From contig JABTTV010000001.1 in assembly GCA_015075725.1 (NCBI GenBank), positions 1-64,000 of the forward strand: DNA of 64,000 nt. Direction: 5' to 3'. The position numbers and the translations under genes are program-made. This stretch comes from Anaerolineales bacterium (GTDB taxonomy: Bacteria > Chloroflexota > Anaerolineae > Anaerolineales > Villigracilaceae). Below are positions 47,564-61,646 of the stretch, piece after piece (within the stretch, counting starts at the first letter, position 1; the number at the start of each line of letters is the position of its first letter). The notes beneath the pieces were generated by a model, which saw only the letters and a program-made list of their open reading frames with translations, did no database searches and was not told the DNA's origin.

Positions 47564-47852
47564 TGGAACCTCCTTACTTCGGCAAAACTGCCGTTCGATT
47601 CATGATGCGAAACCACATGATAACGGATGAGTATTGGAATCTCATTAATGGATCAAGGTCCCCGCCTCATGACGGACCTGTATCCGGGTAGCCCATTGGT
47701 TGCATTTATCCTCCCTTTACTTGAATCCTGCCAAAAAATGTTCACTATTGGGCTGATTCGGTTTCAGACTAGCTCTTCCGATGAACTGGCTACGCGCAGA
47801 CGAGAATCCGAGCGTTTAGCAACTTGCCTCGAACAATCGCGGCTTCTCATGC

Positions 47853-47858
47853 TATAAT
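47853..47858 (+). promoter_or_regulatory. -10 box for the aspS leader
   Basis: A perfect TATAAT with 9 nt to the leader ATG at 47868. No good -35 is seen at 16-18 bp. Transcription would start 2-4 nt before the leader ORF. The preceding part of 47564-47850 shows no gene. Confidence 0.6.
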
Positions 47859-47867
47859 CCCGCCACG

Positions 47868-47951
47868 ATGAAGCACCCGATCCACTTTGCCAACAACGAT
47901 AATAATAATGATAATGACGATCTCCCCTATCGTTGGGCGAAGCCTTGCTAG
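47868..47951 (+). CDS. Asn/Asp-rich leader peptide of the aspS attenuator
   Basis: A 27-codon ORF ending in TAG. Codons 9-18 read N-N-D-N-N-N-D-N-D-D, ten consecutive Asn or Asp codons, which is far beyond chance in a short ORF directly upstream of aspartyl-tRNA synthetase. Its codons 22-25 (bases 47931-47940) overlap the antiterminator strand. The peptide itself probably has no function; its translation senses charged tRNA-Asn and tRNA-Asp. It has almost no 5' untranslated region. Confidence 0.8.
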   Translation: MKHPIHFANNDNNNDNDDLPYRWAKPC

Positions 47952-48014
47952 TTGACAACGCAAATCAAGTCAAGCCAATCGCCCGACGCAGAAGCGCAGG
48001 GCGATTTATTTTAT
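47931..48014 (+). promoter_or_regulatory. Transcription attenuator (antiterminator/terminator) of aspS
   Basis: Terminator: AATCGCCC (47977-47984) pairs with GGGCGATT (47999-48006), closed over an inner CGC/GCG hairpin and followed by TATTTTAT. Antiterminator: 47931-47940 (CGTTGGGCGA) pairs with 47979-47988 (TCGCCCGACG) over 10 bp with one G-U pair, using up the 5' arm of the terminator. A ribosome stalled in the Asn/Asp run leaves 47931-47940 free, so the antiterminator forms; a ribosome at the stop codon covers it, so the terminator forms. Confidence 0.8.
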
Positions 48015-48021
48015 CTATTCC

Positions 48022-48076
48022 ATGTCATTTGCGAGAGCGGCACAATTCCGCTCGAAGCAATCTCCCCGCAATGACA
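48022..48076. repeat. ATGTCATTTGCGAG...GCAATGACAT repeat (family A)
   Basis: The shortest family A copy in the window, lying between the attenuator and the aspS ribosome-binding site. Inverted ends enclose a GAGCGG...CCGCTC hairpin and GAAGCAATCTC. Confidence 0.65.
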
Positions 48077-48098
48077 TAATCCTTTCGGAGGCGCAAGA

Positions 48099-49862
48099 AT
48101 GTACAGAACTCATCTTTGTGGAGAATTAAGAGCCAGTCATGCCGGGCAGACCGTCACACTCGCAGGCTGGGTAAATCGACGCCGCGATCACGGCGGGGTG
48201 GCATTCTTTGACCTGCGTGACCGCGCAGGCATTGTTCAGGTCACCATCAATCCCGACTTGCCCAAAGAAATGCTTGATCTCGTTGCAGATGTGCGCAATG
48301 AGTGGGTTTTACAGATCGAAGGCGTGGCACAAAAACGCCCTGAAGGGATGGAAAATCCCAAAATGGAAACGGGCGAAGTAGAGGTCATTGCCAAAAATGT
48401 GACCGTACTCAACCCGTCCAGGACTCCGCCGTTCATGGTCAACACCGATAACGACCTGCCCGACGAGAACATGCGTTTGAAATACCGTTACATTGACCTG
48501 CGCCGCGAACGCCTGACCAGGAATATGGTGCTGCGGCATAAGATCGTCAAGTTCATGCGCGACTATCTCGATAAAGAAGGCTTTATCGAGATCGAAACGC
48601 CGATCATGTTCAAAGCGACTCCGGAAGGCGCGCGCGATTACCTCGTTCCTTCCCGCATTTACCCGGGTCAGTTCTACGCATTGCCCCAGTCGCCCCAGCA
48701 GTTGAAACAATTGCTGATGGTGGCAGGCATGGACAAATATTTCCAGATCGCGCGCTGCTTCCGCGATGAAGACCTGCGCGGCGACCGTCAGCCCGAATTC
48801 ACACAGCTAGACCTTGAGATGTCTTTCGTGCAACGCGACGATGTGTTGGATCTGGTCGAAGGCCTGTTCACGGCGATGCTGCCTGAAGTGGCGCCTTACA
48901 AGAAGTTGTTTTCTTCGCCGTGGCCCAAGTTCTCTTATAAGGAAGTGCTCGAGCGCTTCGGCACAGACAAACCCGACCTGCGCTTCGGCATGGAGTTGAT
49001 CGACGTCACCGATATTTTAGCGAAGAGTGAGTTCAAGGTCTTCCAGTCTGCGTTGGAGGCGGGCGGTGTGATCAAGTGCATCGTCGCTCCCAAGTCTGCG
49101 GAGATGTCACGCAAGGAACTCGACGCGCTCACCGGAGTGGCGAAGTCGTTTGGGGCGAAGGGAATGCCCTATTTGGCGGTAACAGCCGAGGGCGTGAAAG
49201 GAAGCGCGGCAAAGTTCTTTAAGGAGGAAGAACTGGCAGCGTTGAAAGAAAAAACGGGAGCAGGAGTCGGCGATCTGATCGTCTTCGCTTCTGATGCCCG
49301 CGCGGTGGTCAACAAAACGCTGGGCGGGCTGCGCCTCTGGTTCCGCGATAGGTTGGATTTGGCAGATAAAAATATGATGGCATTCGCGTGGGTTGTGGAC
49401 TTCCCGTTCTTTGCGTTCAATGAAGAAACGCAAACATGGGAGTCGGAACATCATCCGTTCACGATGCCGAAGATGGAAGACCTGCCGAAGTTCGATACCG
49501 ATCCTGGCGCGGTGCTTTCGGATGCGTATGACATGGTGTGTAACGGATATGAGACCGCCTCAGGCTCGATCCGTATTCACCGCCGCGATATTCAGATGAA
49601 GATGTTCCAGTTGCTCGGCTTGAGTGACGAGGATATTCAGAAGAAATTCGGTCACATGCTGGAGGCGTTCGAGTATGGCGCTCCCCCGCACGGCGGCATG
49701 GCTCCGGGCATTGACCGTCTCGTGATGCTGCTGGCGGACGAACCGAACATCCGCGAAGTGATCGCCTTCCCGAAGAACCAGAACGGACGCGATGTGATGG
49801 CGGATGCTCCGTCTGAGGTGGAGCCGAAGCAGTTGAAAGAACTACATATCAAATTTAGTTAG
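48099..49862 (+). CDS. aspS: Aspartyl-tRNA synthetase, probably non-discriminating
   Basis: A 587-residue class II bacterial-type AspRS. The N-terminal OB anticodon-binding domain (1-105) has [20 protein letters not shown]. Catalytic motifs are [41 protein letters not shown] (motif 2), and [18 protein letters not shown] (motif 3). A GAD insert lies at about 285-420. Residue 31 is His and residue 83 is Gly in RPEGMENP; in studied enzymes these mark AspRS forms that also charge tRNA-Asn, whereas discriminating forms have Leu and Lys. GatCAB genes lie 1.5 kb downstream. A GGAGG precedes the ATG, and an attenuator with Asn/Asp codons lies upstream. Confidence 0.96.
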
Positions 49863-59968: not shown

Positions 59969-61312
59969 ATGGCTGAATACGTCAGCGTTTCAAAAATATC
60001 AAACTACATCGGGCAGGATGTCGTCCTCAAGGGCTGGGTCTACAATCGCACGGATAAGGGCAAACTGGTCTTTTTGCTCGTGCGCGATGGTTCGGGCTTC
60101 ATACAATGCGTCGCCTTCAAAGGCGATCTGACGCCCGAACTATTCGAGACGGTCTCCAAACTGCCGCAGGAATCGTCGGTGGTCATTACCGGCTCCGTGC
60201 GCGAAGATAAGCGCGCGCCCGGCATTCCTGGCGGGTTCGAGGTCGGCATCAAGGACTTGCAGGTCGTCCAAGCCGCGGACGTTGATTATCCGATGGCGCT
60301 CAAAGACCACGGTCCCGATTTCGCGCTCGACCATCGTCATTTGTGGATTCGGATGCAAAGTCAATGGGCGATCCTGCGCGTCCGCGTGCGGGTCATGTCC
60401 GCGGTGCGCGAGTATTTGGATGGACAGGGCTTCTTCAATCTCGACACGCCCATCCTGACCCCCGCCGCTGCCGAAGGGACGACGACTCTTTTCGAGACCG
60501 AATATTTCGATGAAGGATCGGCTTTTCTTGCACAAACCGGGCAACTCTACAACGAAGCCAACATCTTCGCTTTTGGAAAAGTTTATTGCTTCGGTCCCAC
60601 CTTCCGCGCGGAGAAATCAAAAACACGCCGCCACCTGACCGAGTTCTGGATGCTCGAACCCGAGATCGCCTTTTGCGACCTGGACGGTTTGATGGAAGTG
60701 GAAGAAGGGATGATTTCCTACATCGTCCAGTCTGTGTTAAGGGATTGCGCCGCCGAGTTAAAATCGCTAGGCAGGGATGTGACAAAATTGGAGAATATCT
60801 CCGCGCCCTTCCCTCGCATGTCCTACGATGATGCTGCAAAATATCTGATCGAACTCTACGAAAAAGAGACCGATCCCGATAAGAAGGAATTGCTCAAATT
60901 CGAATGGGGCATGGATTTCGGCGCCCCGCACGAGGTGGAGTTGACGAAATTAAACGACAAACCGCTGTTCGTTTACGGCTACCCGAGCGCGGTCAAAGCC
61001 TTTTACATGGAGCCCTGGCCCGGTCGCCCCGAAGTTTGCAAATCTGTGGATTTGCTCGCGCCTGAAGGCTACGGCGAAATTTGCGGCGGCTCAGAGCGCA
61101 TGTCTGACCATGACGCGCTGCTGGTGCGAATCAAAAAGGAGGGTCTGCCTGAGGAAGCGTTCAAGTGGTATTTGGAATTAAGGAAATACGGTTCGGTTCC
61201 CCACTCGGGATTCGGCATGGGCGTGGAAAGGGTCGTCGCCTGGCTGTGCGGCATCGAGCACATCCGCGAGGCGATTCCCTTCCCAAGGACGATCAAAAGG
61301 GTGTATCCGTAA
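59969..61312 (+). CDS. asnS: Asparaginyl-tRNA synthetase
   Basis: A 447-residue class II AsnRS. The OB domain (1-110) has GWVYNRTDKGKLVFLLVRDG. Motif 2 is CFGPTFRAEKSKTRRHLTEFWMLEPE and motif 3 is HSGFGMGVERVVAWLCG. The presence of AsnRS beside a non-discriminating-type AspRS and GatCAB means Asn-tRNA-Asn could be made both directly and by transamidation; alternatively GatCAB may serve only Glu-tRNA-Gln. Confidence 0.96.
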   Translation: MAEYVSVSKISNYIGQDVVLKGWVYNRTDKGKLVFLLVRDGSGFIQCVAFKGDLTPELFETVSKLPQESSVVITGSVREDKRAPGIPGGFEVGIKDLQVVQAADVDYPMALKDHGPDFALDHRHLWIRMQSQWAILRVRVRVMSAVREYLDGQGFFNLDTPILTPAAAEGTTTLFETEYFDEGSAFLAQTGQLYNEANIFAFGKVYCFGPTFRAEKSKTRRHLTEFWMLEPEIAFCDLDGLMEVEEGMISYIVQSVLRDCAAELKSLGRDVTKLENISAPFPRMSYDDAAKYLIELYEKETDPDKKELLKFEWGMDFGAPHEVELTKLNDKPLFVYGYPSAVKAFYMEPWPGRPEVCKSVDLLAPEGYGEICGGSERMSDHDALLVRIKKEGLPEEAFKWYLELRKYGSVPHSGFGMGVERVVAWLCGIEHIREAIPFPRTIKRVYP

Positions 61313-61462
61313 CCGGAAAACCGGATCAAATCTCCCCGTCGAATATAGAGGCGGGGACATCCCTCTTTCTATAGCACAGAATTCCTCTCAGGGCAATTGT
61401 TTCATGAGAAGGATTAATCCGTCAATTTCTTTCCTTGTGCTTTGGATTATGGTATAAGAACT

Positions 61463-61637
61463 GTGCCCTGCGATGTGCGTGATATTGCACTTACGTTTTG
61501 AGCCAACACCTCATAAAAGGGTCCTTATCTCAACGGAAATAACGCGATAGGCCTGAGCCAAGGCGGCGTTTCCCGGTCAGGACCCACCTGCGCAAGCAGG
61601 TTCAAAACCCGGCAATACACGGCATGTGCGGGGTACC
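61463..61637 (+). ncRNA. ssrS: 6S RNA
   Basis: About 175 nt with the 6S layout, which mimics an open promoter and binds sigma-70 RNA polymerase. The closing stem pairs GTGCCCTGCG near 61463 with TGCGGGGTAC near 61627. The upper stem pairs GGGTCCT with AGGACCC. Between them is a large central bubble whose 3' side carries the small CCTGC-GCAA-GCAGG hairpin followed by TTCAAAACCCGGCA, typical of this family. TATAAG at 61453-61458 would serve as -10, and a terminator follows at 61647. A covariance-model search would settle the exact ends. Confidence 0.8.
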
Positions 61638-61646
61638 GAGTATCGA

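Follow-up and report, generated by a model that had tools for sequence, protein, structure and literature searches.

The Leader Region Upstream of aspS

The analyzed stretch of DNA (64,000 nucleotides, referred to as the window) originates from an Anaerolineales bacterium and carries a short leader ORF and an intrinsic terminator upstream of aspS, the predicted regulated gene (table 1). The leader peptide (MKHPIHFANNDNNNDNDDLPYRWAKPC, followed by a stop codon) can be divided into a N-terminal part (MKHPIHFA), an uninterrupted run of Asn and Asp residues (NNDNNNDNDD), and a C-terminal part (LPYRWAKPC). Nine nucleotides separate the run from the antiterminator arm of strand 2, which is followed after 8 nt by the leader stop codon, after a further 25 nt by the terminator hairpin and, about 84–85 nt beyond the end of the terminator, by the aspS start. 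The antiterminator consists of 10 bp including one G-U pair. The original prediction, made from the sequence of the window, had described the 27-codon ORF with this run at codons 9–18, the terminator and the 10-bp pairing with its 5′ arm, and a correctly spaced trp-type layout; each of these elements is present in the sequence, and the three competing stems that such a layout requires can all be formed. The stem between strands 1 and 2, the small hairpin between strands 2 and 3, and the extended –10 element had not been part of that prediction. The palindromic repeat between the terminator and aspS does not belong to the attenuator because relatives have either other copies of it or unrelated palindromes there.

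Table 1. Features of the aspS Leader Region (Window Coordinates)
Feature	Position	Strand	Description
Extended –10 element	47850–47858 (hexamer 47853–47858)	+	TGC-TATAAT (TGCTATAAT); from sequence, putative promoter
Leader ORF	47868–47951	+	27 codons
Strand 1	47885–47901	+	Anti-antiterminator 5′ arm, from folding; overlaps the FAN codons and the beginning of the run
Sensor run	47892–47921	+	NNDNNNDNDD, 10 consecutive Asn/Asp codons (codons 9–18 of the leader ORF)
Strand 2	47928–47942	+	Antiterminator 5′ arm at 47931–47940 (CGTTGGGCGA); the whole stretch alternatively pairs with strand 1
Leader stop codon	47949–47951	+	Positioned such that a ribosome there would cover strand 2
Small hairpin	47952–47973	+	TTGAC...GTCAA; conserved, separates strand 2 from strand 3; 90% of its cells are paired across the family alignment
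Intrinsic terminator	47977–48014	+	Hairpin 47977–48006 (–19.0 kcal/mol), AATCGCCC (from 47977) ... GGGCGATT (to 48006); U-rich tract 48007–48014, TATTTTAT
Strand 3	47979–47988	+	Antiterminator 3′ arm (TCGCCCGACG); overlaps the terminator 5′ arm
REP/MITE-like palindromic repeat	48022–48080		GTCATTTGCGAG...CCGCAATGAC
Shine–Dalgarno sequence of aspS	48087–48091		GGAGG
aspS	48099–49862	+	Aspartate--tRNA ligase by NCBIfam

Only 9 nt separate the –10 hexamer from the leader ATG in the window. A comparable arrangement is found among relatives: TGC precedes TATAAT in 75 out of 85 leaders and the ATG follows TATAAT at a distance of 6–12 nt in 72 out of 85, so that transcription would be expected to start 0–5 nt before the ATG. 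The remaining 13 leaders have the ATG 14–21 nt after TATAAT, and most of those listed have GAGG in front of the ATG. Judged by the promoter spacing, the leader peptide would probably be translated from a nearly leaderless mRNA.

Alternative RNA Structures and Compensatory Changes

The unconstrained fold of the leader contains the stem formed by strands 1 and 2, which embraces the run, together with the terminator (minimum free energy –39.0 kcal/mol, z = –2.6), and a partial transcript that stops at strand 3 adopts the antiterminator fold. In relatives, the last codons of the run (GACGAT) are able to serve as strand 1. Full-transcript folds favor the terminator even with a ribosome masking the run and antitermination must therefore be kinetic, as is usual for ribosome-mediated attenuators.

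The RNAalifold consensus missed the stem between strands 1 and 2 (the run shifts in the alignment) and a structure given by hand was used for the stem test. The stem displays double compensatory changes in the family alignment at pair 66/74 (U-A 27, C-G 10) and at pair 65/75 (A-U 37, C-G 4), and the terminated structure is 95% paired compared with 31–42% when it is slid. Strands 2 and 3 are 98.6% paired within the family with no double changes. Overall, a mutually exclusive antiterminator and terminator were found together with an anti-antiterminator, and covariation is good for the 1:2 and 3:4 stems and weak for the antiterminator (2:3) because strands 2, 3, and 4 hardly vary within the family.

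Across families, the terminator is present in all 82 distinct leaders scored. Outside the CGCCC/GGGCG core, the terminator pair was scored at 111 sites, of which 80 have U-A, 12 C-G, and 6 A-U. The 3′ part of the leader is complementary to the terminator 5′ arm (within the best 5% of shuffles) in 65 out of 82 leaders, and none of 2000 shuffles pairs as well as the terminator outer pair, shuffle counts that overstate independence since many of the sequences are related. Several of the 17 complementarity failures arise because a downstream hairpin was picked instead of the terminator.

Conservation, Specificity, and Phylogenetic Depth

The 49 closest aspS loci, taken from the named MAGs and the family sample, all carry the leader (43 distinct sequences). 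The RNA blocks are nearly invariant (GTTGGGCGAAGC; TTGAC..GTCAA; AATCGCCC(G/A)ACGC..GCG..GGGCGATT) and the peptide is variable at its N-terminus but retains the Asn/Asp run, with 386 Asn/Asp codons (AAT 172, AAC 86, GAT 67, GAC 61) and few others in 43 runs. The C-terminal part of the leader peptide is unconserved; the window and eight relatives use another frame, which encodes RWAKPC in place of VGRSFAG. Counted from GGGCG, the stop codon of each of the 43 aligned leaders follows at 18 nt in frame 0 or at 14 nt in frame +1. A fixed stop position in both frames would be required for ribosome release behind strand 2 and is hard to explain otherwise.

A covariance model of the leader (R1) matched at aspS in all 17 same-family genomes of the sample and also in families f6, f7, f8, f9, and f14; a search of the genome of the window with the same model returned no second element. 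Furthermore, the promoter-plus-run pattern TATAAT-N18..48-(RAY)6 was searched in 100 whole genomes of the family with the reversed pattern as a control. The pattern matched in 61 out of 100 genomes, compared with 0 out of 100 for the control, and occurs once in the 4.79 Mb genome of the window, at the locus described here. Compared by coordinates, and leaving aside a site at a contig end (G092), the pattern sites stand immediately 5′ of aspS or asnA with a single exception, an Asp-rich stretch in G087:C154.

Elsewhere in the order, with the closest relatives excluded, a diverged leader (defined as a short ORF with at least six Asn/Asp in 10 codons) was identified in 44 out of 96 aspS upstream regions (e.g., MFQPIVVDNNNLDNNPQRAGGPCLAVR, MNLMFSDANPNNNGNNNLNYRFGCVAH, and MPEYAPTTNDNANDNANDAQPRRVGEVVLPE). 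The original prediction had named relatives lacking a run or a terminator upstream of aspS as the outcome that would count against it; instead, the element is conserved at all 49 closest loci and, in diverged form, in other families of the order, and the outer terminator pair shows compensatory changes. No Asn/Asp leader was found upstream of aspS in 58 other Chloroflexota or at 59 loci of other lineages. Families f2, f12, f13, and f15 appear to lack the leader, and no T-box was found as a substitute at aspS in these families. Leaders of the same build with a run of His codons were absent from the 61 genomes screened.

Leaders of asnA and the Asn/Asp Codon Mix

The asnA gene (aspartate-ammonia ligase, PF03590) is present in 7 out of 100 genomes of the family, and an attenuator of the same kind precedes it in all seven (e.g., G037:C12:70164-70327, minus strand; examples of the leaders are MTIIHIANNNNNNNNNRLNAVGRSLPG and MFDYSFANFNNNNNNNNAVLRGVGRSASNLQT). 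The asnA of G202, which belongs to another family, has no such leader. The seven asnA runs contain 49 Asn and 3 Asp codons compared with 37 and 20 in the leaders that precede aspS in these genomes (Fisher's exact test, nominal P = 1.5e-4), which indicates that Asp codons are depleted at asnA and kept at aspS; a single asnA leader (G091) retains two Asp codons, whereas that of G053 is Asn-only. Asp codons thus accompany aspS and are lost where only asparagine would matter, and the asnA copies are a natural codon-retuning experiment that offers a test of the codon-sensor model.

The most serious alternative, although an unlikely one, is that the leader senses a single amino acid, mainly Asn, and that the Asp codons are tolerated or kept for pairing of GACGAT with strand 2. 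Asn codons exceed Asp codons by about 2:1 in the runs of the 43 relatives, the asnA leaders are predicted to work with Asn alone, and the terminal Asp codons lie inside the 1:2 stem. However, Asp codons are also found within the run, away from the stem, and their depletion is limited to asnA. Furthermore, GAC forms a G-U pair with strand 2 in 34 out of 42 leaders where AAC (Asn) would form an A-U pair. Asp therefore prevails at the end of the aspS run although Asn would pair better, and RNA pairing fails to explain the Asp codons.

The AspRS encoded in the window carries His31 and Gly83, as do the Asp/Asn enzymes of Pseudomonas aeruginosa and mycobacteria, and is of the non-discriminating type. 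The suggestion in the original prediction that the codon mix fits such an enzyme holds with respect to these residues but is neither needed nor supported as the cause of the mix. Leaders that precede Phe31/Asp83 enzymes, which are apparently discriminating, carry the same Asn/Asp mix (Asp fraction 0.36 vs. 0.31, P = 0.42) and the genome of the window also encodes AsnRS and GatCAB, and the mix can therefore not be credited to a non-discriminating AspRS. Two genomes (G014 and G034) contain two aspS genes each, one of the His31/Gly83 and one of the Phe31/Asp83 type, and each gene has its own Asn/Asp leader. Behind the His31/Gly83 copy lie gatA and gatB, and its leader is the richer in Asn (13:4 vs. 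8:8), a contrast in the expected direction that is non-significant (P = 0.16) and suggestive.

Downstream of aspS, the window contains dapB, gatC, gatA, gatB, and asnS (the AsnRS gene, 59969–61312). A single operon from aspS to asnS is unlikely in the window given that asnS is 10 kb away and separated from gatB by genes on the minus strand; in several relatives (G052 and others) asnS directly follows aspS. A 6S RNA gene is located directly 3′ of asnS (61462–61638; Rfam RF00013, 76 bits).

Alternative Explanations for the aspS Leader

Much less probable than a leader that senses one amino acid is control of aspS by a T-box or another RNA-only element that binds tRNA or a ligand, with the ORF being incidental. 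T-boxes do occur in these bacteria: about eight candidates were identified in the genome of the window, and T-boxes were found in all 20 relatives tested. However, no Rfam T-box (RF00230) match was obtained in the region of the window or at 40 other aspS loci, and the leaders conserve the frame of the ORF, the codons of the run and the place of the stop but not the C-terminal peptide, a pattern that argues against an element acting through RNA alone. The candidate T-boxes lie elsewhere in the genome of the window, so T-box control and leader-peptide control would coexist there.

Autoregulation by binding of AspRS to the leader appears slightly more remote again. Leader binding is known as a mode of autoregulation for some other synthetases, but the element is also found in front of asnA, whose product is not a tRNA synthetase, and protein binding would require neither codon retuning nor the placement of the stop codon. 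A simple-sequence repeat that happens to lie beside an ordinary terminator can practically be dismissed: the run is rich in AAY/GAY, but its codons remain Asn/Asp from species to species despite free variation at the third base and between A and G at the first, the pattern is confined to aspS and asnA, and the conservation already refutes this explanation.

A Probable Ribosome-Mediated Attenuator for Two Amino Acids

The element upstream of aspS is very probably an attenuator of the ribosome-mediated (trp/his) transcription type that monitors the charging levels of tRNA-Asn and tRNA-Asp. Membership in this class rests on anatomy and evolution, that is on the layout, its conservation, the compensatory changes, the stop placement, the near-exclusive association with aspS and asnA, and the retuning at asnA; the position of the transcription start, the translation of the leader, ribosome stalling, and the sign and magnitude of the regulatory response are predicted. 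RNA polymerase would start just 5′ of the leader ATG and a ribosome would load on the nearly leaderless 5′ end. With ample Asn- and Asp-tRNA, the ribosome would cross the run, reach the stop codon and cover strand 2, leaving strand 3 to pair with strand 4 and transcription to end at 48007–48014. If either charged tRNA is short, the ribosome would stall in the run and block the pairing of strand 1, strands 2 and 3 would pair, the terminator could not form, and aspS would be transcribed. In the absence of translation, the 1:2 stem would form and termination would be favored. On balance, though with limited confidence, the leader may be a dual-input attenuator that integrates the charging of tRNA-Asp and tRNA-Asn, metabolically linked through AspRS, GatCAB, and AsnRS. 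Codon changes would then have adapted its copies to what the respective downstream gene requires, with Asn-only runs at asnA and leaders of different composition at the two aspS genes of G014 and G034.

The trp, his, leu, thr, and phe attenuators of the Proteobacteria share with this leader a peptide with tandem codons, three competing stems, a terminator before the gene, and a stop codon behind strand 2. The leader described here differs from them in that Asn and Asp codons are mixed, the targets are aspS and asnA, the phylum is the Chloroflexota and the ATG is usually located 6–12 nt from the –10 hexamer on a probably nearly leaderless mRNA. Synthetase genes under a classical attenuator are exemplified by pheST in Escherichia coli. 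The trpS and leuS genes of Streptomyces are likewise controlled by classical leader-peptide attenuators, but these carry Trp or Leu codons and belong to the Actinobacteria, and no Asn/Asp leader is mentioned (PMC1262725). T-box riboswitches of the Firmicutes also respond to the charging of specific tRNAs and antiterminate synthetase and amino-acid genes; unlike the aspS leader, which has no T-box match, they bind the tRNA directly and have no leader peptide.

The curated amino-acid operon leaders in Rfam (His, Trp, Thr, Leu, and others) gave no match at the locus and no earlier Asn/Asp leader was found in Rfam or in the literature searched (open-licence papers only), in line with the possible novelty proposed in the original prediction. 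The leader would extend attenuation to two amino acids, to aspS, and to the Chloroflexota, for none of which an earlier report was found in these searches. The covariance model R1 and the Asn/Asp run pattern can be used for the annotation of aspS leaders in Anaerolineales genomes, and the two-amino-acid run poses a clear and testable question, whether one leader may sense two tRNAs at once.
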